Part shown: in pieces, positions 37,971-62,079 of the stretch
How the letters are laid out: each line of letters begins with the position of its first letter
Position numbering within the stretch: position 1 is the stretch's first letter
NCBI GenBank assembly: GCA_026388415.1
Contig: JAPLJV010000063.1
Coordinates: 1-64,000, forward strand
Source of the DNA: Deltaproteobacteria bacterium
GTDB lineage: Bacteria > Desulfobacterota > Syntrophia > Syntrophales > JACQWR01
DNA length: 64,000 bases
Reading direction: 5' to 3'
Translations under genes and position numbers: made by a program
Notes under the pieces: model-generated
Database searches by the model: none
What the model saw: only the letters and a program-made list of their open reading frames with translations
Told to the model about the DNA's origin: nothing

Positions 37971-38555
37971 ATGGTGACGGAAATAAACCGGCATCTTTAC
38001 ATTATTGCCGGTCCCAATGGTTCGGGAAAGACCACTTTTGTCCGGAGGTTTCTTCCCTATTATGCGGACTGCATTAATCTTGTGAATGCTGATTTGATTG
38101 CCGCCGGCCTTTCTCCGTTTTCACCGGACATAGCCGCCATCAAAGCTGGTAGAATAATGCTGGAGCAGATTCAAGAACATATTAACGCGGGCCATGATTT
38201 TGCTATTGAGACAACATTGGCGGGTAGATCGTATGTCAGATTGCTCAAGGATCTGAAGAAAAAGGGCTATAAAATCCATCTGTTTTATTTATGGCTCCAT
38301 AAACCGGATCTGGCGCTAAAGCGCATTGCCGCACGCGTCAGAGCGGGAGGGCACGATGTACCAGCGGAAGTCGTAAGACGCAGGTATGCCAGAAGTGTGT
38401 ACAATTTCTTTCACCTTTACAGGCAGTTGCTCGATTCATGGATGTTATTCGACAATTCGGCTGATTTACCCCGCCTGATTGCAGATGAAGAAAGTGGCCA
38501 TCTAACAGTTATTGATGATAAGCTGTTTTCCGCTATTGAAAGGAGTTCCAAATAA
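37971..38555 (+). CDS. Zeta-toxin-like P-loop kinase
   Basis: 194 residues with a Walker A (IIAGPNGSGKTTFVRR, about residues 11-26), NADLIAAGLSP, and FAIETTLAGRSY, as in zeta/PezT-like proteins that phosphorylate a sugar-nucleotide or other small substrate. R-rich HKPDLALKRIAARVRAGGHD and VRRRYARS may bind phosphate. Overlaps the start of the next gene by 1 nt. The pair resembles chromosomal zeta-like toxin-antitoxin modules, toxin first. All frames look intact. Confidence 0.78.
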   Translation: MVTEINRHLYIIAGPNGSGKTTFVRRFLPYYADCINLVNADLIAAGLSPFSPDIAAIKAGRIMLEQIQEHINAGHDFAIETTLAGRSYVRLLKDLKKKGYKIHLFYLWLHKPDLALKRIAARVRAGGHDVPAEVVRRRYARSVYNFFHLYRQLLDSWMLFDNSADLPRLIADEESGHLTVIDDKLFSAIERSSK

Positions 38556-38863: not shown

Positions 38864-38936
38864 ACCGGCCGAAGTCGGAAATAAGTAAATGCGTACCGCC
38901 ATTATGCGGAAAGCAGCTTGGACAAAGGAGATGCAG

Positions 38937-40235
38937 ATGAAAAAAACTTTTTCGCCGGTCGTGAAGACCGCTCAGGAGTTGCAGGACTGGCAACTAAAAG
39001 GTCTGAAGTGGACCGTCACGCACGCCTACAAAGGTTCGCAGCATTACCGGGCCAAGTTTGATGAAGCCGGCGTAAAACCGGCCGATATCAAAACACTGGC
39101 CGACATACAAAAACTACCGTTCGTCTCGAGCAAAGACCTCCAGGAAGGCTATCCCTTCCCACTCCGGAGCGTACCATTTAAGGATGTGGTGCGGATCCAC
39201 GCCTCCAGCGGCACGACGGGCAAGAGAAAGATCCTCTGCTACACCGCCAAGGATATTGACGACTGGGCGGAGATGTTTGCGCGTTGTTACGCCTACGCCG
39301 ACTGCACGCCTGAAGACAGAATCCAGATCGCCGTAGGATATGGCGTCTGGACGGCGGGCTGGGGGTTCCAGAACGGCTGCGAACGGTTCGGGGCCATGTC
39401 CATCCCGGCCGGCCCGGGCAATCTCGATATGCAGTGCCAGTTTCTCGAAGACTTCCAGACGACGGTCATGTGTTGCACCGCCTCGATGGGACTGCTCATG
39501 GCCGAGGAAATTGACAGGCGCGGTCTGCGCGGGAAGATAGCGCTCAAGAAGATGATCTTCGGCTCTGAACGGGCGAGCGACGCCATGCGGGTGCGAATTT
39601 CCGAGCTTTCCGGGGTGGCCGCGGATCAGCTATATGATATTCCCGGGCTCACCGAGCTCTATGGTCCGGGGACGGGTCTTGACTGCCGTCACCACCAGGG
39701 CATCCACTATTGGGCGGATTACTACATCCTGGAGATACTTGATCCTCAAACCCTGAAACCAGTGCCCCCCGGAGAGATTGGCGAAATGGTGGTGACCACG
39801 CTCCGGAAAGAGGGGGCGCCGCTAGTCCGCTACCGGACACGGGATTTGACGAGGATCATCACCACGCCCTGTCCCTGCGGAAGTATAATGCCCAGGCACG
39901 ACAGGATTCTGGGGAGATCGGACGACATGTTCATCTTCCGGGCCGTCAACATCTATCCGAGTCATATTGATCAAATTCTTTCGCATATTGATAGCGTGGG
40001 GAGTGAATACCAGGTCATCCTTAACCGGCTCGAGAACGGCAAAGACAGCATGCTGATCAAGGTGGAGAGGGCCGGGGACGTCGCGTCGGGACACGATGAC
40101 GGCCCGATCAGAAAGGCCATCGAACGTGACATAAAGAAGCAGATCATGGTGAGTTGCGATGTCGAGGTCGTGGATTATGCGGCTCTGCCGAGATCGGAGA
40201 GAAAAACCAAAAGGGTATTTGACAACAGAGACTGA
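38937..40235 (+). CDS. Phenylacetate-CoA ligase-family acyl-CoA ligase
   Basis: Adenylate-forming ligase of the PaaK type, 432 residues from ATG 38937 (AAAGGAG six nt upstream; the frame is open 16 codons further). AMP/ATP motif HASSGTTGKRK, then the PGLTELYGPG and YRTRDLTRI segments and a Cys-containing loop (PCPCGS). It would activate an aromatic or other carboxylic acid to a CoA thioester, here probably the substrate of the molybdenum hydroxylases that follow. Substrate not predictable from sequence. Confidence 0.88.
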   Translation: MKKTFSPVVKTAQELQDWQLKGLKWTVTHAYKGSQHYRAKFDEAGVKPADIKTLADIQKLPFVSSKDLQEGYPFPLRSVPFKDVVRIHASSGTTGKRKILCYTAKDIDDWAEMFARCYAYADCTPEDRIQIAVGYGVWTAGWGFQNGCERFGAMSIPAGPGNLDMQCQFLEDFQTTVMCCTASMGLLMAEEIDRRGLRGKIALKKMIFGSERASDAMRVRISELSGVAADQLYDIPGLTELYGPGTGLDCRHHQGIHYWADYYILEILDPQTLKPVPPGEIGEMVVTTLRKEGAPLVRYRTRDLTRIITTPCPCGSIMPRHDRILGRSDDMFIFRAVNIYPSHIDQILSHIDSVGSEYQVILNRLENGKDSMLIKVERAGDVASGHDDGPIRKAIERDIKKQIMVSCDVEVVDYAALPRSERKTKRVFDNRD

Positions 40236-40250
40236 TAAAGGGGGTACATC

Positions 40251-41234
40251 GTGACGCATTTTGAATATCATAAGCCGCACACCATCAAAGAAGCGATCGC
40301 TCTGATGGGGAGCCTGGAAAATGCCAAATTTATCGCCGGAGGCACGGATATCATGGTGCTCATCAGGCAGAAAAAGATCGCCCCGGCGCATCTTGTTTCG
40401 CTCCGTAATATCAATGATTTCGCGCCTATCAGTAATAGCGGCGCGGGGGAAGGTTTGCAGATCGGGGGCGGTGTCACCTTTAGCGACATCGTGGCGAACG
40501 AGTTCATCCGGGAACGCTACTCGGCGCTTACGGATGCCGCGGGCCAAGTCGGCTCCCGGCAGATACGCAACGTGGCTACCGTCAGCGGCAACATCTGCAA
40601 TGCCGCCCCGTCGGCGGACACGGCCTGCCCGCTTTTGGTCCTCGATGCCGATGTAAAGATAGCGGGGCCAAAAGGCGAACGCCAGGTTCACCTTGATGAT
40701 TTTTATCTGGGGGCGGGCCGGGTGGATCTCGGGCCGGGTGAATTGGTAACGGGCTTTCATCTACCCGCTTTCGGGCAGAATACCGGTTCCGCCTACATCA
40801 AGCATACCCGCAGACAGGCCATGGATCTTCCCATGGTCGGGATTGCCGTGCGTGTAACCATCAAGATCGGCGGCAGTGAGATCGGCTGCAAAGATGCCTT
40901 CTGCACCATTGACAGCATCTCGAATATACTTAAGCGTCTGGAAGACGAGGAACTGCGCTGTGAAGAGGTGCGGATCGCCATGGGCGTGGTGGCGCCGCGA
41001 CCGGTACGCGCCCGGAAAGCGGAGGCGGCGCTCCAGGGGAAGGTCATATCGGAAGCGCTCTTCGAGCAGATAGGCGAAATAGCGGCCACAGAGGCGCAGC
41101 CGCGAGACAGCGTCCGGGGAGAGGCAAGGTACCGGCGGGAAATGGTCAAAGTGCTTACGAAAAGGGCCATTCTGACTGCCGTGGACCGCGTACTCAGACC
41201 CGATGACATGATACATCCGGACAGATTGTGGTGA
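40251..41234 (+). CDS. Molybdenum hydroxylase FAD subunit (trio 1)
   Basis: CoxM/xanthine dehydrogenase-type FAD-binding subunit, 327 residues. FAD motifs FIAGGTDIMVLIRQ (about residues 25-38) and VSGNICNAAPSADT. C-terminal CO-dehydrogenase flavoprotein domain from about residue 180. No extra Cys loop, unlike its paralogue at 44014. It precedes its small subunit by 12 nt, and the trio order is M-S-L. Confidence 0.92.
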   Translation: MTHFEYHKPHTIKEAIALMGSLENAKFIAGGTDIMVLIRQKKIAPAHLVSLRNINDFAPISNSGAGEGLQIGGGVTFSDIVANEFIRERYSALTDAAGQVGSRQIRNVATVSGNICNAAPSADTACPLLVLDADVKIAGPKGERQVHLDDFYLGAGRVDLGPGELVTGFHLPAFGQNTGSAYIKHTRRQAMDLPMVGIAVRVTIKIGGSEIGCKDAFCTIDSISNILKRLEDEELRCEEVRIAMGVVAPRPVRARKAEAALQGKVISEALFEQIGEIAATEAQPRDSVRGEARYRREMVKVLTKRAILTAVDRVLRPDDMIHPDRLW

Positions 41235-41246
41235 GAGGATAAAAAA

Positions 41247-41720
41247 ATGAAGCGAGAAATGACGTTTAAGCTCAATAACGAAGAGCGCAAGGTAGAAGTT
41301 GATCCCGCGTGGACGCTGCTTTATGTGCTGCGGGACGTCCTGGAACTCATGGGTACGAAAGAAGGCTGCGGATATGGAGAGTGCGGCGCCTGTACGGTCA
41401 TTATTGACGGCCAGTCCGTGAACTCATGCCTCTATCCGATTCTGGAAGCTGAGGGCCGGACCGTGACGACAATAGAAGGGCTGGGGGCGGCCAGCGGTGA
41501 ACTACACCCGCTCCAGCAGGCCTTTGTCAATGAAGGCGCCGTCCAGTGCGGATTCTGTACGGCGGGGATGATCATGTCGGCCAAGGCGCTCATAGATGAG
41601 AAAGTAAAGCCGACGGAAGACGACATCAAGGAGAGCATTGCCGGCAATTTGTGTCGCTGCACCGGCTATGTGCAGATTATTGATGCTATAAAAACCGTTG
41701 CCGGTGGGGGGCGAACATGA
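41247..41720 (+). CDS. Molybdenum hydroxylase 2Fe-2S subunit (trio 1)
   Basis: CoxS-type protein, 157 residues, two [2Fe-2S] clusters: plant-type motif CGYGECGACTVIIDGQSVNSC in the first half (21 residues, positions about 43-63) and CGFCTAGM with CRCTGY in the second. Passes electrons from Mo to FAD. Ends 4 nt inside the next gene. Confidence 0.94.
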   Translation: MKREMTFKLNNEERKVEVDPAWTLLYVLRDVLELMGTKEGCGYGECGACTVIIDGQSVNSCLYPILEAEGRTVTTIEGLGAASGELHPLQQAFVNEGAVQCGFCTAGMIMSAKALIDEKVKPTEDDIKESIAGNLCRCTGYVQIIDAIKTVAGGGRT

Positions 41721-44017
41721 GCGATCTGACTATGGTAGGGAAAAAAATCACCAAAAGGGACGCCCCTTTGAAAGTCACGGGGGGCGCCACGTACATCCAG
41801 GACCTGAAAATTCCGGGCATGCTCTACGGCGGGATTCTCTACAGCAAATACGCCCACGCGAAAATACTGAAACTTGACACCGCCAAGGCGGAGCGTCTCC
41901 CCGGCGTGGTGGCCGTCATCACGGCCGCCGATGTGCCCAATAATTTCAGAATTGGCATTATGAAAGACAATCCGCCGCTGAAGACGGGCCGGGTTCGCTC
42001 CACGCGCGATGAGATCGCTGCGGTGGCGGCTGTGAGCGCCGAGATTGCCGCGGCAGCCCTGGAGCTCATAGAAGTCGAGTATGAGGAGCTGCCGGGGATT
42101 TTCGATCCTTTGGAAGCGATGCAGGAGGGAGCCCCGCTCGTCCACGAGGAGATGAAGTCCAATATCCTGAAGATGCCCTGGAAGCTCATCTGCGGCGATG
42201 TGGAGGCGGCGAAAAAGGAGTCCGCTCATGTCGTTTCCGATACCTTCCGCACCCAGTGGGTGACGCACTGCTGCCTCGGAACGAGCGGCTGCATTGCCGT
42301 ACTCGATATGAGCAACAACCTCACCATGTACAGCAACACGCAGATCCCGTCACTGGCCCAGAACGACTACTTTGAAGCGCTCGCAACCTTCGGATTCAAA
42401 GGCCGGCGGGTTCGGGTCATTCAGTGCGCCATCGGCGGCGGTTTCGGCAGCAAGCTGGATACCTATGCCTATGAATATATTGCCATTCTGCTCGCCATGA
42501 AGACGAGAAAGCCCGTCAAGTTAGTTTTCTCCCGGGAGGAGGAATTTTTTGCCACCTCGCCGCGGCAGTGTACGATTACGAAGATATCCCAGGGCTGCGA
42601 CAAGGACGGCAGGCTCACCTTCCGGGAAATGGAGATGGTCCTCGATAACGGCGCCTACACGTCCTGGGGGGCGACGACGCCCTCGGTCATGATGATGCCC
42701 ATCTCGTCGCTCTACAAGGTGCCGAACATAAAATACGTGGCCAAGTGCGTATATACAAACAACACCTATAGTCAGGCCATGCGGGGTTACGGCAACCCCC
42801 AGGCCACCTTTGCCATTGAATCATCGCTCGACCAGTTAGCCGAGAAGGCGGGTATTGACCCCTATGAGCTGCGTTTCCGCAATGCCAACGAACCGGGAGA
42901 GCTGACACCGCAGAATTTTAAAGTCACCTCCTGCGGGATGAAGGAGTGCATGGCTGAAGTCGCCCAGAGGCTCGACTGGAAGGGCAAAAAGGGAAACGGC
43001 AAGGGCCGCGGCGTCGGGATGGCTTCGCTCATCCATGTGGGCGGCGGCGCCCGGGTATATAAGTCCGACGGTTGCGGGACGATCATCAAAATGGATGACC
43101 ACGGCAAGGTTGATGTCCTGACCGGGGCGACGGAAATCGGGCAAGGATCGGAGACGGTCCTGGCGCAGATCGTGGCGGAAGTGCTCGGCGTAGCCATTGA
43201 CGATATCAACGTTATCAATAACGATACGGACGTCTGTCCCTGGGACGTGGGAGCTCATGCGAGCCGGTCCACCTTTGTGGCCGGGAATTCGGCTTTGGGC
43301 GCGGCACAGAAGATCAGGAAGCAGATGCTGGCAGTGGCGGCCAAGAATCTGGGTGTAGACCCGGCAGCCCTGGACATAAAAAACGGCGTCGTCTTTTCCA
43401 CGCAGGATAAGGAAAAGAGCATACCCCTGTCCAAGGTGCTCAGAAAGGTCCATTATGCTCCCGGCGGAAACATGTTCACGGCGGAAAATTTTTACGATCC
43501 GCCCAACGAGAATTTCGACAAGGATTTTAAGGGCAACCTTTCCGTCGCCTACGCCTACGGCGTTCATGGGGTGGAGGTAGAAGTGGACCGGGAAACCGGA
43601 CAGGTTAAAATACTCAATTATATCGCGGCCCACGATGTCGGTAAGGCTATTAATCCCATGCTGCTGGAAGGCCAGATATACGGCGGCGGGCTAATGGGGA
43701 TCGGCTACGCCCTCGGCGAGACCATGATCTATGAAAAGGGGCGCCTGAAGAACGGTAACTTCTTAGACTACAAGATGCCTACCGCCAAAGATGTACCGCC
43801 GGTTCAGGCCGTTATCGTGGAGACGGACGAGCAGGCCGGGCCCTTCGGGGCCAAAGGCATCGGGGAACCGGGGCTGGTGCCCACGGCGCCGGCAATTGCC
43901 AACGCCATTTATGATGCCGTCGGCGTCCGGATCAGGGACCTGCCGATTACTCCGGAGAAGGTGCTCCGGGCCCTGCAGGAAAAGGCGCAGGCCGACGCAA
44001 CAAGGAGTGGTACATGA
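41717..44017 (+). CDS. Molybdenum hydroxylase large subunit (trio 1)
   Basis: Xanthine oxidase-family Moco subunit of 766 residues. Moco-contact GGGFGSK and GQGSETV motifs, the AMRGYGNPQ segment, and the C-terminal GAKGIGEPG with the expected catalytic base Glu717. Complete N-terminal hammerhead domain. Predicted to hydroxylate, or in reverse reductively dehydroxylate, an aromatic or heterocyclic (CoA) substrate. Overlaps both neighbours by 4 nt. Confidence 0.93.
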   Translation: MSDLTMVGKKITKRDAPLKVTGGATYIQDLKIPGMLYGGILYSKYAHAKILKLDTAKAERLPGVVAVITAADVPNNFRIGIMKDNPPLKTGRVRSTRDEIAAVAAVSAEIAAAALELIEVEYEELPGIFDPLEAMQEGAPLVHEEMKSNILKMPWKLICGDVEAAKKESAHVVSDTFRTQWVTHCCLGTSGCIAVLDMSNNLTMYSNTQIPSLAQNDYFEALATFGFKGRRVRVIQCAIGGGFGSKLDTYAYEYIAILLAMKTRKPVKLVFSREEEFFATSPRQCTITKISQGCDKDGRLTFREMEMVLDNGAYTSWGATTPSVMMMPISSLYKVPNIKYVAKCVYTNNTYSQAMRGYGNPQATFAIESSLDQLAEKAGIDPYELRFRNANEPGELTPQNFKVTSCGMKECMAEVAQRLDWKGKKGNGKGRGVGMASLIHVGGGARVYKSDGCGTIIKMDDHGKVDVLTGATEIGQGSETVLAQIVAEVLGVAIDDINVINNDTDVCPWDVGAHASRSTFVAGNSALGAAQKIRKQMLAVAAKNLGVDPAALDIKNGVVFSTQDKEKSIPLSKVLRKVHYAPGGNMFTAENFYDPPNENFDKDFKGNLSVAYAYGVHGVEVEVDRETGQVKILNYIAAHDVGKAINPMLLEGQIYGGGLMGIGYALGETMIYEKGRLKNGNFLDYKMPTAKDVPPVQAVIVETDEQAGPFGAKGIGEPGLVPTAPAIANAIYDAVGVRIRDLPITPEKVLRALQEKAQADATRSGT

Positions 44018-45012
44018 AGCTTCCATCTTTTGAGTACCTGGAACCGGCCACCGTCAAGGAAGCCTTAGCGATGCTCGATACTTACCAGGACAGGGTGGCA
44101 ATAATCGCCGGCGGGACGGAGTTGGTCAATCGCCTGAGGTTGCGGCTCATCAGCCCCGACTACGTCATGAATATCAAAAAATTGCGGGATTTGGAGGGCA
44201 TCGGCGCACGGGAACAGTCAGTTGTCATTGGCGCCAATGTCACTATCAAGGAAATCAGCGCATCATCTCTTTTTCGAGAGAAATACCAGGCCATTGCGGA
44301 GGCTGCCTCACAGGTGGCCGCCCCGCCGCTGGCTCAGATGGGGACGGTCGGGGGAAATATCCTGCAGAATACGCGGTGCCTGCTCTACAACCAGTCCGGG
44401 ATAGTGTTGAAGGGACTGGCCGTATGCCACAAAAGGGGCGGCGCGACCTGTCTGGCCGTCAAGGGCAGCAAGCGCTGTTTCAGCGTCTATCAGGGCGATA
44501 TGGCGCCGGCGCTCATGGCTTTTGATGCCCAATGCGTCCTTGCCAAGAGCGGCTCCCAACGCACCATTCCCCTCCGGGAGCTTTTCACCGGACAGGGCAC
44601 AAAACCTTTCTCCATAGAAAACAACGAGCTGCTCACGGGGATCATCGTCCCGCAACAAAGCGGCGCCTACGGTTCTGCGTACCGGAAACTCCGGCTCAGG
44701 GGCAGCATTGATTACCCCCTGGCATCGGCGGCCGCGCTTTTAGCGATCGGCAGTGACAGGAAAATTGCCGTCAGCCGTCTCGTCATCGGCGCCGCCGGTT
44801 GCGCGCCGAAGGTTGTCGAGCGGGCCTCGGCAATGCTGCTCGGGAAATTGCCCGAGGAGGCGGATTTCAAAGCCGCCTCCGATCTGGCCTATGGGCTGTC
44901 GGAAGGTGTGGACAATCTCGCCCTGCCCGGTGATTACCGGCGGAAAATGGTACGGGTGCTCTCGCAAAGGGCCCTCGCGGGAGCCTGTACCGATATGAAG
45001 AGGGGGGAGTGA
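44014..45012 (+). CDS. HcrB-like FAD subunit with [4Fe-4S] loop (trio 2)
   Basis: 332 residues, FAD subunit of the xanthine oxidase family. FAD motif IIAGGTELVNRLRLR (30-44) and TVGGNILQNTR. It carries an insertion of four Cys (122, 138, 146, 155: RCLLYNQSG, AVCHKRG, ATCLAVKG, KRCFSVYQ) matching the extra [4Fe-4S] loop of 4-hydroxybenzoyl-CoA reductase beta subunit HcrB. That loop links to low-potential ferredoxin for reductive chemistry. Overlaps trio 1 large subunit by 4 nt. Confidence 0.9.
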   Translation: MKLPSFEYLEPATVKEALAMLDTYQDRVAIIAGGTELVNRLRLRLISPDYVMNIKKLRDLEGIGAREQSVVIGANVTIKEISASSLFREKYQAIAEAASQVAAPPLAQMGTVGGNILQNTRCLLYNQSGIVLKGLAVCHKRGGATCLAVKGSKRCFSVYQGDMAPALMAFDAQCVLAKSGSQRTIPLRELFTGQGTKPFSIENNELLTGIIVPQQSGAYGSAYRKLRLRGSIDYPLASAAALLAIGSDRKIAVSRLVIGAAGCAPKVVERASAMLLGKLPEEADFKAASDLAYGLSEGVDNLALPGDYRRKMVRVLSQRALAGACTDMKRGE

Positions 45013-45013
45013 A

Positions 45014-45493
45014 ATGAAGGAGATGAAGCGATATTCCCTGACCCTGACGGTGAATAATGAAGCCCATAAGGTGACGACGTCGCCGAACCGCACCCTGCTC
45101 GAAGTGCTGCGCGATGACCTCCATCTCACGGGCGCCAAAGAGAGTTGCGGCGAAGGCGCCTGCGGGTCCTGTACGGTGCTGGTGGACGGGCAGCCCGTGC
45201 GCTCCTGCCTGACACTGGCCGTGGCTATGGAAGGCAAAAAGATTACCACCATCGAAGGGCTGGCCCAGGGGGGTAAGCTGCACCCGGTCCAGGCCGCCTT
45301 CGTAGAGCAACACGCAATCCAGTGCGGCTTCTGCAGCCCCGGGATGATTCTTACCTCCCAGGCGCTCCTGAACAATAACCCTAACCCTGCGGAAGGCGAG
45401 ATCCGCCGCGCCATATCGGGCAATGTCTGCCGGTGCACCGGCTATGCCAAGATCGTCAAAGCCGTCCAGTCGCTGGCCGGGGAGTGGAGGTAG
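45014..45493 (+). CDS. Molybdenum hydroxylase 2Fe-2S subunit (trio 2)
   Basis: 159 residues with CGEGACGSCTVLVDG and the following Cys, then CGFCSPGM and CRCTGY: two [2Fe-2S] clusters as in HcrC/CoxS. A one-nt gap after the FAD subunit. Clearly a paralogue of 41247-41720 but with a different Cys-loop sequence. Confidence 0.93.
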   Translation: MKEMKRYSLTLTVNNEAHKVTTSPNRTLLEVLRDDLHLTGAKESCGEGACGSCTVLVDGQPVRSCLTLAVAMEGKKITTIEGLAQGGKLHPVQAAFVEQHAIQCGFCSPGMILTSQALLNNNPNPAEGEIRRAISGNVCRCTGYAKIVKAVQSLAGEWR

Positions 45494-45498
45494 GCTAC

Positions 45499-47781
45499 AT
45501 GGAAAAATATACCCTGCTCGGAAAAGATATGAAACGGATTGATACGGCCGCCAAGGCCACCGGAGAGGCCATCTTCTCGGCGGATATCTCCCTGCCCAGG
45601 ATGCTGGTCGGCAAGGTGCTCCGCTCGCCCCATCCCCATGCGCGGATTCTGGCGATTGACACGTCAAAGGCCGAAAAACTGCCGGGAGTCAAGGCGGTTA
45701 TCACGGCCAAGGATATGTGCGGCGATAAATGGGGGGTGTTCAGATACACCCAGGACCAGCAGTTTCTCCCCACCGAGAAGGTCCGCTATGTGGGCGAAGA
45801 AGTAGCGGCGGTCGCCGCCGACGATGAAGATACGGCTCTGCAGGCCCTGGCGCTCATTGACGTTGAATATGAACTCCTTCCGGCCGTCTTCACCATCAAG
45901 GATGCAATGGCCGCCGGAGCGCCGCAGCTCCACGATGCCTATGCCAATAATATCAATGTGGAGGTAAAGATTGATGTCGGAGACATTGAAAAAGGCTTCA
46001 GCGAATCCTTCTTAGTCAGGGAAGATACGTTCAGCGCCCCGGAGGATACCTATTGCCAGACTGAGCCCTATGCGGTCGCGGCCCAGTTTGACCGGGCGGG
46101 CAACCTCGAAATATGGATGCCCAACGCCGGCCCTCACATGAAGTCCAAGCCACTGGCGAACGTCCTGAAAATTCCCCTGAACAAGGTAAGGGTACGCAAA
46201 ATCGCAATCGGCGGCGCCTTCGGAGGCCGGTCGGAAATATCGCCCGCCGATGTGATCTGCGCCTTCCTGGCGCGGAAAGCCCACCGGCCCGTCAAGATTG
46301 TTTACACGCGGGAAGAAAATACCGTAGCCACGCGGCAAGCCCACGCCTTGGTGACGAAAATTAAAACCGGCGTGGACCGGGAAGGGAAGGTCCTGGCGCG
46401 GGATATCACCTGTTATATGGACGGCGGCGCCTACAGCTCCACGGGCCCCATCGCCGTCTCCGTCCCATTTCTCTGCCTGGAACAGGCCTACCGGATGGAC
46501 AACGTCCGCTACACGGGCTACCGGATCCTGACCAACAAACCGATTCGGGGCATGTACCGCGTTCATGGCCGGGCCTTTTCCTGCGGTATTGATGTGCAGT
46601 TAGACGAGATGGGCGCAGAGCTGGGTATTGACCCGCTCTCGATGCGTCTGCGGAATGCCCGTCAGGCCGGGGACTATACCCCGACCAAGTCCTACGTGGC
46701 CAGTTGCGGTATGACGGAGGCGATCGTCAAAGCGGCGGAGAAGTCGGGCTGGAAAGACAAGTTCGGCAAGCTTCCCCCCTGGCACGGCATCGGCATCGGC
46801 TGCAACTCTGTGCAGACAGGGTTCCCTATGGGAATCAGGGGGGGCTCCCAGGCCTTCATCAAATTGAACGAAGATGGCGGGATTACGGTCATCACGGGGA
46901 TCGTTGATAACGGTCAGGGCAACGACAACATGGTGGTCCAGATTGCCGCCGAGGAGCTCGGGCTTAGCCCCGAAGATGTTCAGCTCATCAGCGCCGATAC
47001 GGAAGTGACCCCGAGCGACCCCGGCTCCTATTCCATGTGCGAGACCTTCGTCGGCGGCAATGCGGTGCGGCTGGCGGCGCAGGATGTGAAAAAGAAGCTC
47101 TTCCGGATTGTGGCCGGCGAGCTGGGTGTGGGTGAAGATGACCTTACCGCCCGGGACAGGAAAATCTTTGTGACCACCAATCCCGCAAAATCGCTGAACA
47201 TTGACAAGGCCGTGCGGATTGCCCTGAGCCGCAACGAATCAATCAGCGGTGAAGGTTCCTACTGGCCGGCGGTTGATTCCAAGCGCGAATGGGTGAAAAA
47301 CCCCTACGGTCAGCTTTCGGAGGCCTTTTCCTTTGGCGCCGTTATAGTGGAGGTGAAGGTGGACCCGGAAACAGGGCAGGTGGAGGTGCTGGAGGCAACA
47401 GCCGCCCAGGATGTGGGCTTCGCCCTGAACCCGCCAATCATCGAGGGGCAGTTCGAAGGCGGTGTCGCCATGGGCGGTCAGGGAGGAATGTTGACCGAAT
47501 TCCTGCAATGGCACGAGGGGCGGGTGCTAAACCCCAGCCAGCTCGGCTACTTAGTGCCGCTGGCGATAGATATGCCGCCGATCAACAACATCATTGTGGA
47601 AACCATTGATCCCAAAGGGCCTTACGGGGCCAAGGAAGCAGGCATGTCCGTTGCCATGAGCGCGGCGCAGGCCTACTGCGGCGCCATCAGCAATGCGGTG
47701 GGGGTCTATTTCCACGATTATCCCATCACGCCGGACAAGATCGTGCAGGCCATCGAGGAGAAAAAAGCGGCGGGAAGGTGA
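45499..47781 (+). CDS. Molybdenum hydroxylase large subunit lacking the expected catalytic Glu (trio 2)
   Basis: 760 residues from ATG 45499 (AGGTAGGC upstream); the frame is open further upstream but inside the previous gene. Moco motifs IGGAFGGRSEIS and DNGQGNDNMV are intact, the fold is complete and the C-terminus normal (YPITPDKIVQAIEE). At the catalytic position, where the trio 1 paralogue has GAKGIGEPG, it reads GAKEAGMSV: Met716 replaces Glu. It may have altered catalysis. Pairs with the HcrB-like subunit. Confidence 0.9.
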   Translation: MEKYTLLGKDMKRIDTAAKATGEAIFSADISLPRMLVGKVLRSPHPHARILAIDTSKAEKLPGVKAVITAKDMCGDKWGVFRYTQDQQFLPTEKVRYVGEEVAAVAADDEDTALQALALIDVEYELLPAVFTIKDAMAAGAPQLHDAYANNINVEVKIDVGDIEKGFSESFLVREDTFSAPEDTYCQTEPYAVAAQFDRAGNLEIWMPNAGPHMKSKPLANVLKIPLNKVRVRKIAIGGAFGGRSEISPADVICAFLARKAHRPVKIVYTREENTVATRQAHALVTKIKTGVDREGKVLARDITCYMDGGAYSSTGPIAVSVPFLCLEQAYRMDNVRYTGYRILTNKPIRGMYRVHGRAFSCGIDVQLDEMGAELGIDPLSMRLRNARQAGDYTPTKSYVASCGMTEAIVKAAEKSGWKDKFGKLPPWHGIGIGCNSVQTGFPMGIRGGSQAFIKLNEDGGITVITGIVDNGQGNDNMVVQIAAEELGLSPEDVQLISADTEVTPSDPGSYSMCETFVGGNAVRLAAQDVKKKLFRIVAGELGVGEDDLTARDRKIFVTTNPAKSLNIDKAVRIALSRNESISGEGSYWPAVDSKREWVKNPYGQLSEAFSFGAVIVEVKVDPETGQVEVLEATAAQDVGFALNPPIIEGQFEGGVAMGGQGGMLTEFLQWHEGRVLNPSQLGYLVPLAIDMPPINNIIVETIDPKGPYGAKEAGMSVAMSAAQAYCGAISNAVGVYFHDYPITPDKIVQAIEEKKAAGR

Positions 47782-47958: not shown

Positions 47959-48381
47959 ATGAAAATCGAGAAGGTTGATCACATTTGCTTTGCCGTAAAG
48001 GACCTGGAAGCGACCAAAAAAGTCTACAAGGACGATCTGAATCTGGAGCCGGCTTTTGAGTATGTTGCCGCTTCGGAAAAGATAAAAGTGGCGCGGTATT
48101 TAATCGGCGAGGTGGCCGTGGAGCTTATGGAATCAACGGCGCCGGACGGCGAGGTTGCCAAATTCATCCATACCAAAGGCGAAGGCGTCTTCCTAATATC
48201 CTATAAGGTAGATAATCTTTCCCAGGCCATGCATGAGCTCCAGGAAAAACATGTCAGACTGATTGACAGCAAGCCCAGAGAACTCTTCGGGACCAAGTAT
48301 GCCTTCGTCCACCACCCCGATAAACTCAGCGGGGTGCTGACCGAACTTATTGAAGGCGAATTCGATATCAACAAAAAATAA
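47959..48381 (+). CDS. VOC-superfamily protein, methylmalonyl-CoA epimerase-like
   Basis: 140 residues, two beta-alpha-beta-beta-beta modules. Starts KIEKVDHICFAVKDLEA with the metal His of VDH, then VELMES with a candidate metal Glu, and FVHHPDKLSGVLTELIEG with the second His and Glu. The pattern is that of methylmalonyl-CoA epimerase, but context suggests another CoA or acid substrate. Followed 28 nt later by the dehydrogenase-like gene. Confidence 0.78.
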   Translation: MKIEKVDHICFAVKDLEATKKVYKDDLNLEPAFEYVAASEKIKVARYLIGEVAVELMESTAPDGEVAKFIHTKGEGVFLISYKVDNLSQAMHELQEKHVRLIDSKPRELFGTKYAFVHHPDKLSGVLTELIEGEFDINKK

Positions 48382-48409: not shown

Positions 48410-49552
48410 ATGCGGGTATTGGTAATGGGCGGTTTGGGCGGCATGGGTCAGGGAGTCTCCCGTGACCTGATCAAGCAGGATAAGATCGAGAAAGTCATTC
48501 TCGGTGATATAAATACGGATCCGAGCAGAATGCAGGATAAGTTGCGGGCCAGTGATAAGATATCGCTCATTAAAATTGATGTCAACGATCACCAGGGCAT
48601 GGTCAGCGAGATCAAGGCGGCCGACGTGGTCATCAACTGCGCGGGACCATTCTACAAGACGGCCGTGGCGGTGGCCAGGGCGGCGGTGGAGGCAAAGGTC
48701 AACTATATAGATATTTGCGATGACTATGAGGCGGCAGAGATCCTTTTTGCTTCCGATATTGACGGCGCGGCCAGGGCGGCCGGGATCACCGTCCTTACCG
48801 GTATGGGATCGGACCCGGGGACCAACAACGTCATCGTGCAGTGGTTTGCCAACAAACTCGATCGCGTGAACGAGATCGCCCTGTTTTGGGTGGTGAGCAT
48901 CGCCGAGCTCGCCGGCGCCGCCTGGGATCACAGCCTCCACATGACCATCGGTCAGATTCCCCAGTATATAGATGGCAAGCTGGTGCATGTAGAAGGCGGC
49001 ACGGGCATAGAGACCACCACTTTTCTCGAACCGCTTGGCACCTGCCAGGTTTGCTATGTGGGCCATCCCCAGCCGCTCACCATGCCCCGCTACATAAAAG
49101 GGGTGAAGCAGGTCGTCATCAAAGGCGCGCTCATCCCCGGCTGGGTGGACAAGCTCATCAAGGAGCAGAAAGATACAGGCTTCCTCAGTAAGGAGCCGTT
49201 AGATGTGAAGGGGACAAAAGTTACCCCCTACGATCTGACTTTAAAGCTTTGGGAGGCCATTCCCAATAACAGAGACCGGGGGCCCCAGTCTTCAGGCCTG
49301 AAAGTGATCGTCAAGGGAGAGAGAGGCGGCAACCAGATTACCTACACGGCCGACATGGCGGGCCGGATGGCGCCCGGAACAGGGCTGCCCGCCTCTATCG
49401 CCGCTCTCATGCTCGATGCCGGCGACGTTACGGTCAAGGGTGTGGTCGCCCCGGAAGGCTGCATTGATCCGGAAAAATTCCTCACGGCATTGCTGCAAAG
49501 AGGCGCCAGAATACATCAAACGGAAACGATCACATCTATGCTGACAATTTAG
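48410..49552 (+). CDS. Saccharopine dehydrogenase-like oxidoreductase
   Basis: 380 residues with an N-terminal Rossmann fold (MRVLVMGGLGGMGQG, DINTDP, DVVINCAGPFY) and a C-terminal catalytic domain (GMGSDPGTNNVIV, LKVIVKGERGG). Saccharopine dehydrogenase-like family, NAD(P)-dependent, acting on C-N bonds of amino acids. Together with the aminotransferase downstream it suggests amino-group handling in this cluster. GGAGG upstream. Confidence 0.82.
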   Translation: MRVLVMGGLGGMGQGVSRDLIKQDKIEKVILGDINTDPSRMQDKLRASDKISLIKIDVNDHQGMVSEIKAADVVINCAGPFYKTAVAVARAAVEAKVNYIDICDDYEAAEILFASDIDGAARAAGITVLTGMGSDPGTNNVIVQWFANKLDRVNEIALFWVVSIAELAGAAWDHSLHMTIGQIPQYIDGKLVHVEGGTGIETTTFLEPLGTCQVCYVGHPQPLTMPRYIKGVKQVVIKGALIPGWVDKLIKEQKDTGFLSKEPLDVKGTKVTPYDLTLKLWEAIPNNRDRGPQSSGLKVIVKGERGGNQITYTADMAGRMAPGTGLPASIAALMLDAGDVTVKGVVAPEGCIDPEKFLTALLQRGARIHQTETITSMLTI

Positions 49553-49583: not shown

Positions 49584-50846
49584 ATGAAAACCATTGAGAA
49601 ACTGAATATAACGAAGAGCCAGGAACTTTTTGCCGAGGCAACAAAATTAGTTCCCGGCGGCGTCCTGGGCGCCCGGAAGCCCAGCGATTTTATCGAGGGA
49701 GAATATCCGATTTTCCTGGAATCGGGCCAAGGCAGCAGGCTAACGGACGTGGACGGGAATGAATATATTGATTTCCTCTGCGGCTATGGGCCGATTATCC
49801 TGGGTTATCGGGAGCAAGAGGTTGATGAAGCCGTTATCAGGCAAATAACCGACAAAGGCTTCTGCTTCACCCTGACCCAGCGTTATCAGAATCAGCTCGC
49901 AAAGAAACTGCGCGAAATCGTCCCCTGTTCAGAAATGAGCATTTTTTTAAAGACCGGTTCCGATGCCACTACGGCCAGCGTCCGCATAGCGAGGGCCTAC
50001 ACTAACCGGATGAAGGTCATGCGCTGCGGCTACCACGGCTGGCATGACTGGTGCGTGGAGATGAAGGGGGGCATTCCGGAAAAATTCTACGAGGATGTCT
50101 ATGAATTCCGCTACAACAATCTTGCTCAGATCGAGGAATTGATGGCTATACATGGCGATCAGACGGCGGCCATCGTGATGACTCCGTTTGGCCATCCCAA
50201 CCATCAAAAGATGGCCGAACCCAAGCCCGGGTTCCTGGAAGGGGTTCGAGAGCTCGCTAACAGGTATGGCGCGGTATTGGTCTTTGACGAGGTCCGCACG
50301 GGCTTCCGGCTTGCCATGGGTGGAGCGCAGGAACTTTATAAAGTCACACCCGACCTCGTGGTGCTGGGCAAGGGAATGGCCAACGGCTATGCCATCAGTG
50401 TCGTCACCGGGAAAACCGATGTAATGATGGCCGCAGCCCAGAAGCTTTTTATCTCTTCCACCTTCTTTCCGAACAGCGATGGCTACGTTGCCGCTATAAA
50501 AACCATTGAAATATTGGAACGTGACAACGTCCTGGCCAAGATATGGGAAAAGGGCGGCCGTTTAATGAAAAGAATCCAGGCCATCATTGACAAATACGAC
50601 GTCGGCGCGGAATTGACCGGGGTGGCGCCCATGTTTTATATAACCTTCAAAAAGGATGAAACGGATACCCATCGCGCCAGACGCGATGATTTTTACACCC
50701 AGCTTATCCGCCGGGGCATCTTCTTGCACCCGCACCATCATGGCTATATTTCTTACCGGCACACGGAGGAAGACCTGAACACAACGGTTCAGGCCATAGA
50801 TGAGGCGATGGCCTACGTAAAGGACAAATATCTGAAAAAACCCTGA
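49584..50846 (+). CDS. Class III aminotransferase, glutamate-1-semialdehyde mutase-like
   Basis: 420 residues, PLP-dependent fold I. Pyridoxal Lys in VLGKGMANGYAIS, DEVRTGFR with the PLP Asp, YHGWHDWC and the GSDATTASVRIARAYT segment. It resembles glutamate-1-semialdehyde aminomutase-type enzymes that use beta- or omega-amino acids. A haem-pathway role is unlikely because its neighbours are catabolic. 31 nt after the saccharopine dehydrogenase-like gene. Confidence 0.85.
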   Translation: MKTIEKLNITKSQELFAEATKLVPGGVLGARKPSDFIEGEYPIFLESGQGSRLTDVDGNEYIDFLCGYGPIILGYREQEVDEAVIRQITDKGFCFTLTQRYQNQLAKKLREIVPCSEMSIFLKTGSDATTASVRIARAYTNRMKVMRCGYHGWHDWCVEMKGGIPEKFYEDVYEFRYNNLAQIEELMAIHGDQTAAIVMTPFGHPNHQKMAEPKPGFLEGVRELANRYGAVLVFDEVRTGFRLAMGGAQELYKVTPDLVVLGKGMANGYAISVVTGKTDVMMAAAQKLFISSTFFPNSDGYVAAIKTIEILERDNVLAKIWEKGGRLMKRIQAIIDKYDVGAELTGVAPMFYITFKKDETDTHRARRDDFYTQLIRRGIFLHPHHHGYISYRHTEEDLNTTVQAIDEAMAYVKDKYLKKP

Positions 50847-52928: not shown

Positions 52929-52981
52929 CCAGCTATCGAAAAGCAATGTCTTATCAATCAATCAAAAACATGGAGGTGTTT

Positions 52982-54283
52982 ATGAGTGCGTTACTCCTTG
53001 CCCGTATCCAATTCGCCTTTACGATAGGCTTTCATTTTCTTTTTCCTGCCATGACATTGGGTACCGCCCTGATCATCCTCATATCCGAAACCATGTATCT
53101 TGTCAAAAAAGATGAAATTTATAAAAAGGTAACTGATCTTCTCGCCAAACTGCTCGGGCTGATTTTTGTAGTAGGAGCGGCAACCGGCATCACTATGGAA
53201 TTTTCTTTTGGTACTAACTGGTCGGGATATTCAAGGGCGGTAGGAGATATCTTCGGGCCAATACTTGCAGCCGAAGGCGTGATCGCTTTTTTTCTAGAAT
53301 CAGTATTCATCGGTGTGCTAGTTTTTGGCAGAAACAAGGTATCCGCGAAAGTTTACTGGGTAGCGGCGCTTCTGGTATTTTTAGGTGGCCACCTTTCCGC
53401 TTTCTGGATAGTAGTCGCCAATTCATGGATGCAGACTCCCGCGGGCCACGCAATAAATGAAGCGGGCAAAATAGTCCTGACCAGTTTTACCGATGCTGTT
53501 TTTAATCCATCAACAATCATCAGGTTTTGTCATACGGTTGTGGCTTCGTGGATGACCTGCGCGATCATGATCGCGGGAATTGCCGGATACTATGTAAGAA
53601 AAGGATTGCATGGCCAGACGGCCAAAACAATGCTGAAAATTGGCATAATTCTTTTTGCCATCACACCGATATTGCAACTGGCAACAGGACATATTCATGC
53701 AGTGGAAGTCATCAACAGGCAGCCGGAAAAAGCGGCAGCTATGGAGGGTCATTTTGAGACTGCCAGAGGTGTACCTCTTTATATTGTGGGGTTTGTTGAT
53801 GAGCAAAACGAAAAAACATATGGAATTTACGTTCCCAAAGGTTTGAGCTTATTATACAACTTTGACTGGAACTCGGAAATAAAAGGATTGAAAGATTTCC
53901 CCAAAGAAGATTGGCCACCTGTTAATTTTGTGTTTCAAGCCTACCATATAATGGTGGGGATAGGCATGCTTGCCATTGCCTTGGGATTACTTGGCGTGTA
54001 TCTGCTTTGGACTAAAAAAATCTATGAGAATAAATTATATCTTTTCATGCTGCCCTTTCTGATACCGCTACCGCATATCGCTCATGAGACAGGATGGATC
54101 GCGGCGGAAGTAGGCCGGCAGCCGTGGATAATCTATAAACTGATGAAGACCGCTAAGGCCGCATCGGTTATCGTAACATCGGGTGAAATAGCTTTCAGCC
54201 TGATTATGTTTTTCCTGATTTATCTGCTCTTGGCGATAATATTTATCATGCTGTTTGTAAAAATTGTTAAAAAAGGTCCGTAA
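52982..54283 (+). CDS. cydA: Cytochrome bd oxidase subunit I
   Basis: 433 residues from ATG 52982 (TGGAGGTG upstream; twelve more codons in frame). Quinol oxidase subunit with about nine membrane helices. Haem b595 ligand His in FTIGFHFLFPA, haem b558 His in FCHTVVASWM, EGVIAFFLES, and the GWIAAEVGRQPW motif. Length is short compared with the E. coli type, so it belongs to a short Q-loop variant. Reduces O2 to water; protective in an anaerobe. Confidence 0.95.
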   Translation: MSALLLARIQFAFTIGFHFLFPAMTLGTALIILISETMYLVKKDEIYKKVTDLLAKLLGLIFVVGAATGITMEFSFGTNWSGYSRAVGDIFGPILAAEGVIAFFLESVFIGVLVFGRNKVSAKVYWVAALLVFLGGHLSAFWIVVANSWMQTPAGHAINEAGKIVLTSFTDAVFNPSTIIRFCHTVVASWMTCAIMIAGIAGYYVRKGLHGQTAKTMLKIGIILFAITPILQLATGHIHAVEVINRQPEKAAAMEGHFETARGVPLYIVGFVDEQNEKTYGIYVPKGLSLLYNFDWNSEIKGLKDFPKEDWPPVNFVFQAYHIMVGIGMLAIALGLLGVYLLWTKKIYENKLYLFMLPFLIPLPHIAHETGWIAAEVGRQPWIIYKLMKTAKAASVIVTSGEIAFSLIMFFLIYLLLAIIFIMLFVKIVKKGP

Positions 54284-54315
54284 GCGTAATAAATACCAAT
54301 ATGGGGGAATACTAA

Positions 54316-55326
54316 ATGGATACTATACAGAACTATCAAATGCTCTGGTTCGTTCTAGTTTTGATACTGTTTATCGGCTACTCCCTTTTAGATGGATTTG
54401 ATCTGGGCGTGGGAGCGCTCCTGCCTTTTCTCGGTAAGACCAAAGAGGAAACGGATATACTGATCAATTCTATCGGACCTGTCTGGGATGGCAATGAAGT
54501 CTGGCTGATCACCGGCGGTGGCGCGCTATTTGCGGCCTTCCCCCAAGCTTATGCCACGGCCTTTTCCGGCTTTTATCTGGCGATGATGCTTGTTTTATTC
54601 GCCCTGATTTTTCGGGCTGTCTCGATGGAATTTCGCGCAGGTGACGAGGGGCGAGCCTTGCTCTGGGAGAAAGCCTTTACTTTCGGCAGTGGCCTTGCCG
54701 CTCTTTTATTTGGCGTAGCGCTGGGGAATGTTGTTTATGGAGTGCCGCTGGATAATAAAATGGAATTTACCGGAAGCTTTTTCACCCTGTTAAGACCAGT
54801 TCCGCTATTCTTTGGCATCACCGGGCTTGCCGCTATTCTCCTGCAGGGAGCGTCTTACGCAGTGATGAGAACCGAAGGCGAATTGCAGAAGCGGTCTTTT
54901 CGCGCAGTTAGCATTTTGGTCTGGGTTAATCTCATCACCGCAATTGCTTATTTTGTGACCCTGGCCTTAACTTTTCAGTGGCTTACGTCAAATTGGTTAT
55001 TCTATGTGGCGATGCTCTTTACGTTGCTAGGGCTTGCGGGAATTTTCTTCTCTATCAAAAAAGAAAATGACTCCGCCCCGTTTTGGGAATCGTCATTTTC
55101 TTTTATCGGGCTGTGGCTTGCGGTTGCTATGGTTCATTTCCCCAATTTGATCAAAGCAAGCAACGATCAAAATTTAAGCATAACGATTTTTAACAGTTCC
55201 ACCGGTTTGCAAACACTAAAGGTCATGAGCGCTATTGCCCTAATCGGTATGCCGATTGTCATTGGTTATACCATCTTTGTTTACCGGATTTTTAAGGGGA
55301 AGGCTAAATTATCTGACCATTATTGA
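54316..55326 (+). CDS. cydB: Cytochrome bd oxidase subunit II
   Basis: 336 residues, about eight membrane helices. Signatures LDGFDLGVGALLPFL, GPVWDGNEVWLITGGGALFAAFP and FRAVSMEFR. It follows cydA by 32 nt with GGGGGAAT upstream. No CydX-like small gene or cydDC is seen. Confidence 0.95.
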   Translation: MDTIQNYQMLWFVLVLILFIGYSLLDGFDLGVGALLPFLGKTKEETDILINSIGPVWDGNEVWLITGGGALFAAFPQAYATAFSGFYLAMMLVLFALIFRAVSMEFRAGDEGRALLWEKAFTFGSGLAALLFGVALGNVVYGVPLDNKMEFTGSFFTLLRPVPLFFGITGLAAILLQGASYAVMRTEGELQKRSFRAVSILVWVNLITAIAYFVTLALTFQWLTSNWLFYVAMLFTLLGLAGIFFSIKKENDSAPFWESSFSFIGLWLAVAMVHFPNLIKASNDQNLSITIFNSSTGLQTLKVMSAIALIGMPIVIGYTIFVYRIFKGKAKLSDHY

Positions 55327-59448: not shown

Positions 59449-62079
59449 ATGCGGCTGAAACGATGGCTGCTGATTGTCCTGGTCCTCTGCACCAGTGGTT
59501 GCGGACTTAGTCAAGGATTAACCCGATCCGAGGGCCTTGCCAACTACCACCCCCTATTCATGATCGCCACCAAGAGCAAGGGCGATATCCTCACTCAGGA
59601 AGGACTGGAATACCTTCGCGAAGGTTCCTTCAACAAGTTTCTGTCCTCCATGGGCGAGGCCCTGACGTTTTACTCCGGCAATGGGGGAAAGACCGCCGAT
59701 ATTTGCCGCTATCTGGGCAAGGCCTATCTCGATCGCAACGAGTACGACAAGGCGCTGTCCTATTTCAACCAATCGTTATCCGCCGCTAAAAGCAGCCGAT
59801 ACCAGGAGGGGATCTTCCTGGCGACGGTCGGACTGGCCGATTGCTACAAGAAAATCGGGGATGCCGATAAAGCCATGGAAATTCTGTCGGCAGCCCCGCC
59901 GGACAATCGTGAGTCCGCAAAGGGCGCAAATCCCCTCATTGCCCTGAGCATGGGTGAGACCCTCGCCCAACAGGGCCGTTTATCCCAGGCACTGGACATC
60001 TTCACCAGATCCCTTTCCAACATCGACAGTTACAAGGACGACAAACTGAAGCAGTCGGTTTACTCCTCCCTGGGCACGACCCTTTTCGGCCTCGGCCGTT
60101 ATCAGGAGGCGATCACCCATTACCAGCGTGCCCTTGAACTTGCCCGGAAAAGTTACAACACACCGGATATCGTGGACATACTCAACAACATCGGTTTTTG
60201 TCTGGTGTCTTTGAAAAGATACGGCGAGGCCGCCATGGCTTTTAATGAAGGGTTGGGGCTCCTGACCGTCATGGACCTGCAATATCCCGAAAAACAGATG
60301 TACGCTAATTACGGTCTGGGGCTTTTGAATGAAGAGCAACACCGTAATGCCCAGGCGCTACTATATTACAATACCGCCATCAAGTTTATTGAAGAGTTGA
60401 GAGGCAGCCTGAGTTCGACGGAGTTCCGGTCCTTGTTCCTATCCAATAAAATAGCCGCCTATGAACATGCCATTGACATTCTGCTCATGTCAGCAGGTCG
60501 GACGGCGGATGACATCCGCCTGGATCCGCGATTTACCAAAGCGGGCCTCACACCCGCGGAAGTGGCCTTCTTCTACGCCGAAAGCACCAAGGCCCGATCT
60601 TTTCTCGAACTGCTCTCCAAAGCCAGAATGGGTGCCCTCGCCGACCGGATCCCTCGCGAGCTGGCCGAACAGGAACGGCGATTGCTCAACACTATTGACT
60701 CGCTCCAGACCTCCGGAAGCGGTCAGTCGGAAGCGCAGCGAGAGATCCTGAAAAAATCAAAACGTGAACTCGATGAGTTGATCGCCAAGTTACGGAAAGA
60801 GCATCCGGATTATGCCTCCATCCGCTATCCGGAGCCGGTTATGGCAGGGAATATTCCGCTGCGTGCCAATGAGGTGCTCCTCGCCTACAAGGTCAATCCC
60901 AAGAATACATATCTTTGGATCATGGAAAAAGGCAAAAAACCGTCGGCCGTCAAAATCGCCGTGAGCCGGGAGGAACTTACCCGGAAAGTCAGGGAATTCC
61001 GGAGCGGACTTGAAAATCTGGACCAACTGGAGGTCTACGACCCCGAGAAAGGGCAGGCTCTGGGCAGGCTCTTGCTGGAAGAGGCTCTCAGCCGGATAGA
61101 CTCGGACAAAAATATCATCATCACCCCCGACGGCGTTCTGAACATGGTTCCCTTCGAGGCATTAACGGTTGGTAAAACAAAAAATGCGATTCAATACCTG
61201 GGAGAAAAATACAAAATCAGCTATTATCCCTCCGCCTCGGTCATGGCAACCATGCGGCAGTTCAAGGAAAGTCCCAAATTATCCAAGCCACTGTTTGCGC
61301 TCGGCGATCCGGTCTATGAGGATTCCGATGTGCGTTACAGCCGGAGAAAGTCCGATAACATCGTCGTGGCCGCCGCCGATCAGACGCCCGCTCTCAATTT
61401 GCGCAGTGCCCTGGTCCGCAGTGGTTTCTCTTTGCCACGGCTGCCCGAAACCCGCGACGAGGTCCTGGAAATCGGCGCGCTCTTCGGATACAGGGCCGAT
61501 GACCCGAACATCAAGCTCGATATGGACGCCTCCAAGAGCGAACTTCTGAAATCCGATCTCGGCCGTTACCGGTTTATCCATTTTGCCACCCACGGTCTTT
61601 TGAGCGGCGACATTCCTTACATCCTTGAACCGGCGCTGGTTCTAAGCCAACCAGGAAACCGCAACCCCGAGGACGGCTTCCTCAAGATGAGCGAGATACT
61701 GGAACTAAAGCTTAACGCCGACGCCGTTGTCCTGTCGGCTTGCAAAACAGCCCTGGGAAAAGAGATCGCCGGAGAAGGTATCGTGGGCTTAAGCCGCGCC
61801 TTCATGCTCGCAGGGTCCAAATCGGTTATTGTGAGTCTTTGGAGCGTGGAATCAAATTCGACTGCCGCCCTGATGAAGAGTTTCTACTCGAATCTCAAGC
61901 CCGGAAGGTCCAAGGAAGAGGCGCTTAGGCTGGCCAAGCAGGAAATGAAAAACCAGAATCTGACCCCCTCTGATCTCAGCCGCGGCGTCACGATCGCCGG
62001 ACGGGACAAGAAGATTCAAACCGGGACCTCCCATCCATTCTTCTGGGCGCCTTTCATCCTGATTGGTGAATGGGAGTAA
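59449..62079 (+). CDS. TPR-CHAT lipoprotein
   Basis: 876 residues. Lipobox TSGC (Cys18) after a short signal, so anchored in an envelope membrane. N-terminal TPR array (about 40-320; LGKAYLDRNEYDKALSYFNQ and repeats), a helical linker, and a C-terminal CHAT protease domain (about 560-876) with catalytic His715 in FATHGLL and Cys765 in LSACKTALG, both present. CHAT proteins are caspase-like peptidases; the TPR part usually recruits target or activator. Extracytoplasmic location is unusual for the family. AGGAGAA upstream. Confidence 0.88.
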   Translation: MRLKRWLLIVLVLCTSGCGLSQGLTRSEGLANYHPLFMIATKSKGDILTQEGLEYLREGSFNKFLSSMGEALTFYSGNGGKTADICRYLGKAYLDRNEYDKALSYFNQSLSAAKSSRYQEGIFLATVGLADCYKKIGDADKAMEILSAAPPDNRESAKGANPLIALSMGETLAQQGRLSQALDIFTRSLSNIDSYKDDKLKQSVYSSLGTTLFGLGRYQEAITHYQRALELARKSYNTPDIVDILNNIGFCLVSLKRYGEAAMAFNEGLGLLTVMDLQYPEKQMYANYGLGLLNEEQHRNAQALLYYNTAIKFIEELRGSLSSTEFRSLFLSNKIAAYEHAIDILLMSAGRTADDIRLDPRFTKAGLTPAEVAFFYAESTKARSFLELLSKARMGALADRIPRELAEQERRLLNTIDSLQTSGSGQSEAQREILKKSKRELDELIAKLRKEHPDYASIRYPEPVMAGNIPLRANEVLLAYKVNPKNTYLWIMEKGKKPSAVKIAVSREELTRKVREFRSGLENLDQLEVYDPEKGQALGRLLLEEALSRIDSDKNIIITPDGVLNMVPFEALTVGKTKNAIQYLGEKYKISYYPSASVMATMRQFKESPKLSKPLFALGDPVYEDSDVRYSRRKSDNIVVAAADQTPALNLRSALVRSGFSLPRLPETRDEVLEIGALFGYRADDPNIKLDMDASKSELLKSDLGRYRFIHFATHGLLSGDIPYILEPALVLSQPGNRNPEDGFLKMSEILELKLNADAVVLSACKTALGKEIAGEGIVGLSRAFMLAGSKSVIVSLWSVESNSTAALMKSFYSNLKPGRSKEEALRLAKQEMKNQNLTPSDLSRGVTIAGRDKKIQTGTSHPFFWAPFILIGEWE

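Follow-up and report, generated by a model that had tools for sequence, protein, structure and literature searches.

Organization of the locus

In the window (the whole stretch of 64,000 nucleotides analysed here), two neighbouring gene sets, designated trio 1 and trio 2, each encode a molybdenum subunit, an FAD subunit and a [2Fe-2S] subunit (Table 1). The molybdenum subunit of trio 2 is an intact 760-residue reading frame with an ATG start and zero internal stops, so the initial annotation was right in describing a gene without frameshift. It carries the Pfam domains MoCoBD_1/2 and Ald_Xan_dh_C, and its top PDB match is 1RM6 (472 bits, with 277 bits for the second best), which includes HcrA, the molybdenum subunit of 4-hydroxybenzoyl-CoA reductase (HCR). 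The AlphaFold2 model (mean pLDDT 82, pTM 0.84, with low confidence at the cofactor-lining loops) also has 1RM6 as its best fold match (TM 0.92), and its best 50 matches all belong to the xanthine oxidase (XO) family, whose fold and domain set the protein shares. Its score against TIGR03194, the 4-hydroxybenzoyl-CoA reductase equivalog, is 650.9 bits and lies below the cut-off of 994.55; the trio 2 subunits score under the TIGR03194/3195/3193 cut-offs.

Table 1. Features at the locus (positions in the window)
Feature	Position	Strand	Basis
PaaK-like aryl-acetate CoA ligase, IaaB-like candidate	38889..40235	+	TIGR02155 394 bits, below cut-off; linked in 13 loci
Trio 1 FAD subunit, without four-Cys insert	40251..41234	+	
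Trio 1 [2Fe-2S] subunit	41247..41720	+	
Trio 1 molybdenum subunit with Glu717, likely indoleacetate-pathway hydroxylase	41717..44017	+	Family/domain matches, genome distribution
Trio 2 FAD subunit, HcrB-like	44014..45012	+	FAD_binding_5; best NCBIfam TIGR03195, 215 bits, below cut-off
HcrB-type four-Cys insert C-x15-C-x7-C-x8-C (Cys122, 138, 146, 155)	44377..44478	+	Motif; [4Fe-4S] cluster inferred
Trio 2 subunit with two [2Fe-2S] clusters	45014..45493	+	Fer2_2; all eight Cys present
Trio 2 molybdenum subunit, HcrA-like, without catalytic Glu	45499..47781	+	1RM6, Pfam, TIGR03194
Ala210 at HcrA Gln214 position	46126..46128	+	Gln lost in 43/43 clade members
Met716 at HcrA Glu726 position	47644..47646	+	Gap-free alignment
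VOC protein, methylmalonyl-CoA epimerase-like	47959..48381	+	TIGR03081 88.5 bits, cut-off 114.95; linked in 17 loci
Saccharopine-dehydrogenase-like oxidoreductase	48410..49552	+	Sacchrp_dh_NADP
Class-III aminotransferase, glutamate-semialdehyde-aminomutase-like	49584..50846	+	Aminotran_3; PDB 3l44; linked in 20 loci

The FAD subunit of trio 2 contains the four-Cys insert that distinguishes the HCR equivalogs, and its four cysteines are presumably the cluster positions of HcrB as well. Such an insert is found in 42 of the 43 FAD subunits from trios that, like trio 2, lack the catalytic Glu (the Glu-less trios described below; the remaining one is truncated where its contig stops), versus none of the 13 from neighbouring trio 1 (Glu-type) trios. 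According to the title of Unciuleac et al. 2004, cited in PMC10420851, the extra cluster of HCR accompanies an inverted electron flow.

Elsewhere in the window we have observed a zeta-toxin-like P-loop kinase directly upstream of the ligase gene (37971-38555), cytochrome bd oxidase subunits I and II in what is presumed to be a strict anaerobe (52946-55326), and a protein with TPR repeats and a CHAT domain, possibly a caspase-like peptidase (59449-62076).

A methionine at the catalytic glutamate position

In the XO family, a Glu activates the Mo-OH group. It has been described as strictly conserved in such enzymes (PMC8305194), and its exchange for Gln abolishes the activity of mouse AOX1 while the molybdenum cofactor (Moco) is still bound (PMC2671166). 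Trio 1 keeps this residue as Glu717 (GAA, 43865-43867) within the motif GAKGIGEPG. In trio 2, the HMMER alignment with HcrA is gap-free near the C-terminal end (GPYGAKEAGMSVAMSAA versus GPFGAKEASEGMLAGFL) and pairs Met716, encoded by ATG, with HcrA Glu726; the C-terminal motif itself reads GPYGAKEAGMSVAM in trio 2 and GPFGAKEASEGMLA in HcrA. Since there are no gaps, Met716 replaces Glu726, and the protein lacks the active-site Glu that serves as general base in its family, just as had been proposed from the sequence of this locus.

A register shift that would place Glu713 at the base position was considered and rejected, as no gap occurs in this part of the HcrA alignment and both residues are present in HcrA. 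Glu713 is also no newly arisen replacement base, because HcrA (GAKEASE) has its equivalent alongside Glu726.

The initial annotation had further described the remaining Moco motifs as intact, and this turned out to be wrong. HcrA Gln214, which we take to be the Mo-facing Gln in contact with the Mo oxo group, corresponds to Ala210, and differences extend to loops 352-363 and 513-514. In all 43 aligned members of the Glu-less branch, this Gln ahead of the first cofactor loop is changed to Ala or Gly; the HcrA loop AMRGHG has become GMYRVHG or GMYGCHG, and the SR pair at HcrA 523-524 is absent. Kept in the branch are the GGAFG, HG and GQG loops, and near-invariant residues specific to it include W78, Y83-T84-Q85, E328, R447 and R596-E597-W598. 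This residue pattern suggests a rebuilt pocket rather than decay.

The combined loss of Glu and Gln argues against ordinary hydroxylation. It is still conceivable that trio 2 hydroxylates through another base (for example Glu713, which is conserved three residues ahead of Met716, or Glu328, which is invariant in the branch) or through an external water relay. We consider this very unlikely, given that HcrA has the Glu713 equivalent beside its regular Glu, that the Mo-facing Gln is gone as well, that the AOX1 exchange is lethal to activity, and that the hydroxylation step is already covered by trio 1 (see below). Of the two options offered by the initial annotation, a non-hydroxylating role is thus favoured by the clade-wide loss of Glu and Gln, the AOX1 exchange and the HCR-type FAD subunit, while another base is left without a clear candidate.

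Little probability likewise attaches to a catalytically silent molybdenum subunit that would assist another enzyme, for instance trio 1, structurally or in electron transfer. The main catalytic residue is lost, and trio 2 is often encoded beside trio 1; however, it is also often encoded apart from it, it has a complete set of redox subunits of its own, and both the cofactor loops and the new branch-specific residues are strongly conserved.

A conserved branch of HCR-like enzymes

From the alignment of 43 branch members, it is clear that the exchange is shared by the relatives, a check that the initial annotation had asked for: the base position is occupied by Leu (25), Met (16) or Ile (2), and never by Glu. 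A relative from the same order with 52% identity has Leu. Scanning GTDB genomes yielded 47 loci, and wherever the position could be read in a close relative, it held Met, Leu or Ile. Leu is encoded variously by CTT, CTC, CTG and TTG; the computable pairs of Glu-less members give dN/dS values of 0.03-0.13, which indicate purifying selection. In a quick tree, in which long branches were flagged elsewhere, all Glu-less sequences fall on a single branch (SH-aLRT 100) inside the HCR-like proteins and adjoining the HcrA group. A member with at least 50% identity is present in 57 of the 395 sampled genomes of the phylum; each one inspected carries Met, Leu or Ile.

Outside the branch, Glu is the rule. 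The 39 outgroup sequences of the alignment were chosen for having Glu and are thus 100% Glu by construction; independent support comes from the non-branch homologues among the search matches and from the inspected relatives at 41-46% identity, all of which have Glu. One of the latter, a 46% relative (L130, G449:C445), retains both Gln and Glu; as the closest Glu-type outgroup known so far, it could help to date the double loss.

The source genome is a draft in 66 contigs, which could raise the suspicion of a sequencing error or a pseudogene. This explanation was rejected, and we regard its probability as negligible, since the change is common to many independent assemblies, including the single-contig genomes G175 and G473, and is under purifying selection. 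We are therefore virtually certain that the Glu-less sequences form a conserved, functional HCR branch. In the literature searched, neither a Glu-less family member nor an identified 2-aminobenzoyl-CoA reductase was found.

Three observations concern individual loci. A contig labelled Candidatus Thermoplasmatota (L071) carries a complete Glu-less trio, reflecting either transfer to archaea or misbinning. In the draft of Desulfosarcina cetonica JCM 12296 (L082), the Glu-less gene is in pieces in different frames, either broken or mis-sequenced, and it is intact in many relatives. A 97-residue protein with a GG end, MoaD/ThiS-like by eye and without a Pfam match, follows a Leu-type Glu-less trio (L063:10501-10791) and occurs at 13 further loci; it might have a role in the maturation of an unusual cofactor.

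Association with indoleacetate genes

The gene clusters near Glu-less trios contain a PaaK-like ligase, hydantoinase A/B, a B12-dependent mutase, a CoA-transferase III, ETF and an acyl-CoA dehydrogenase in which the usual Glu is replaced. In the L051/L095 cluster, the ligase, hydantoinase pair, B12 mutase, CoA-transferase III and Glu-less acyl-CoA dehydrogenase are all found together as the set expected of an indoleacetate (iaa) cluster, an assignment made from the combination of gene families and not by comparison with the Aromatoleum iaa sequences. The acyl-CoA dehydrogenase (L095:13857-15005) has LGG instead of YEG and thus misses its catalytic Glu; IaaF likewise has none, its motif being reported as GGG. 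This gene set fits published accounts of the iaa pathway, which mention ETF genes within the iaa operons of strict anaerobes and in which a methylmalonyl-CoA epimerase was shown to act on benzylmalonyl-CoA (PMC8360864, PMC5214803). The end product of the pathway is 2-aminobenzoyl-CoA (PMC9613470).

In the source genome, the hydantoinase pair, mutase and ETF genes lie together on one contig (C43), and the pair is 82-84% identical to those adjoining Glu-less trios elsewhere. The genome also has a benzoyl-CoA pathway hydrolase scoring over its cut-off.

Over the sampled genomes, the iaa-type B12 mutase was found in 53 of 57 with the Glu-less enzyme versus 23 of 338 without (odds ratio 181, kinship ignored). 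Counted by family, again ignoring kinship, 20 families have both, 1 has the Glu-less enzyme only and 4 the mutase only, out of a total of at least 116 families taken from labels. The two genes are at most 20 kb apart in 17 genomes. HyuB as the sole iaa marker gave a weaker association (33/57) because some families (for example those of L145 and L147) have divergent copies, and the mutase was therefore used too. Taken together, it is probable that the Glu-less enzyme works in the same pathway as the iaa genes, a context that the initial annotation had missed, as it had the HCR-type FAD subunit.

Which step it catalyses is a separate question. Of 75 iaa-type genomes, 66 contain a trio 1 orthologue, among them the majority of those in which the Glu-less enzyme is missing, and in one genome (G364) trio 1 shares a contig with the iaa genes. 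Trio 1 is therefore the better candidate for the indoleacetate hydroxylase and likely has this function, and trio 2 is disfavoured for it. Six iaa genomes of one family (G233, G363, G404, G443, G462 and G514) have the mutase and trio 1 without the Glu-less enzyme; instead, they have a Glu-type HCR-like paralogue with 41-43% identity.

Trio 2 could also be a reductase of some other CoA thioester, from the same pathway or a related aromatic substrate. The branch-invariant residues differ from those of HcrA, so that the pocket appears rebuilt, and the mutase was not detected in 4 of the 57 genomes with the Glu-less enzyme. The pathway tie is nevertheless strong, and the known iaa steps besides that of trio 1 require no molybdenum enzyme (PMC8360864); we thus regard another thioester as rather improbable.

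Proposed reductive deamination of 2-aminobenzoyl-CoA

Given the loss of Glu and Gln, the electron path of HCR type and 2-aminobenzoyl-CoA as the end product of the pathway, reductive removal of the amino group is the best reading. We propose, with due reserve, that trio 2 (44014-47781) functions as a molybdenum/Fe-S/flavin reductase of the HCR type and deaminates 2-aminobenzoyl-CoA without oxygen transfer; its substrate, its electron direction and the absence of hydroxylation are all points that we infer. Low-potential electrons, probably supplied by ferredoxin, would be taken up by the additional [4Fe-4S] cluster in the FAD subunit and travel via FAD and the two [2Fe-2S] clusters to the molybdenum site, where 2-aminobenzoyl-CoA, the most likely substrate, would undergo a Birch-like reduction and lose ammonia to give benzoyl-CoA. 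The changes of the base Glu to Met, Leu or Ile and of the Mo-facing Gln to Ala or Gly could be tolerated in such an enzyme, because the reaction would require neither activation of a Mo-bound hydroxide nor transfer of an oxygen atom, so that hydrophobic residues could take their places.

Three findings count against this proposal. HCR itself retains the Glu although it also works reductively; the six iaa genomes mentioned above have a Glu-type paralogue in place of the Glu-less enzyme; and a saccharopine-dehydrogenase-like enzyme and an aminotransferase would have no use in a simple reductive deamination. These last two are the tightest companions of trio 2, often without iaa genes alongside, and the dehydrogenase-like gene co-occurs with the Glu-less enzyme with an odds ratio of 71.

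They give rise to the main rival, in which trio 2, through the same HCR-type electron path, only partly reduces 2-aminobenzoyl-CoA to a non-aromatic amino-cyclohexadiene or -cyclohexene carboxyl-CoA, from which the dehydrogenase-like enzyme and the aminotransferase then remove the nitrogen. However, no copy of the dehydrogenase was detected in 25 of the 57 genomes with the Glu-less enzyme, and to our knowledge no HCR-type enzyme gives a stable non-aromatic product. We consider partial reduction unlikely, though worth keeping in mind.

In sum, the HCR-like enzymes include a new Glu-less branch with a tie to the anaerobic degradation of indoleacetate; the Met716 observation is confirmed, and its interpretation is partly supported and extended. 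We know of no enzyme assigned to the 2-aminobenzoyl-CoA step in strict anaerobes, and trio 2 is a concrete candidate for the handling of this compound, as derived from auxin and tryptophan. A selected branch without Glu in 57 of 395 genomes indicates that the fold has been turned to a chemistry with no need of this residue. It is possible, although far from assured, that this XO branch lacking both Glu and the Mo-facing Gln cleaves an aromatic C–N bond reductively and represents the 2-aminobenzoyl-CoA reductase (deaminating) that is missing from the anaerobic degradation of indoleacetate and tryptophan.

Comparison with known systems

The nearest characterised relative in the tree is HcrA of Thauera aromatica HcrABC (1RM6), which also has the KE motif ahead of the base position. 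HcrABC shares with trio 2 the fold, the three-subunit make-up and the four-Cys insert of the FAD subunit; the two differ in sequence (about 38% identity) and gene neighbourhood, and trio 2 lacks the counterparts of Glu726 and Gln214. The trio 1 type belongs to the same superfamily, is encoded by neighbouring genes and probably acts in the same pathway, but unlike trio 2 it keeps the Glu and has an FAD subunit without the [4Fe-4S] insert.

Closer to the proposed chemistry are the HCR-like proteins 03875/03876 of Desulfatiglans anilini, a related anaerobe, which have been put forward as a putative 4-aminobenzoyl-CoA reductase that removes an aromatic amino group (PMC7500099); their compound is, however, the 4-amino one, and they belong to an aniline cluster. 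The urolithin dehydroxylase Ucdh is another XO-family enzyme used reductively, and its description suggests a 4-HBCR-like mode of working, with two mechanisms under discussion for HCR (PMC12771579). As described there, Ucdh removes a hydroxyl group, and not an amino group as proposed here for trio 2.
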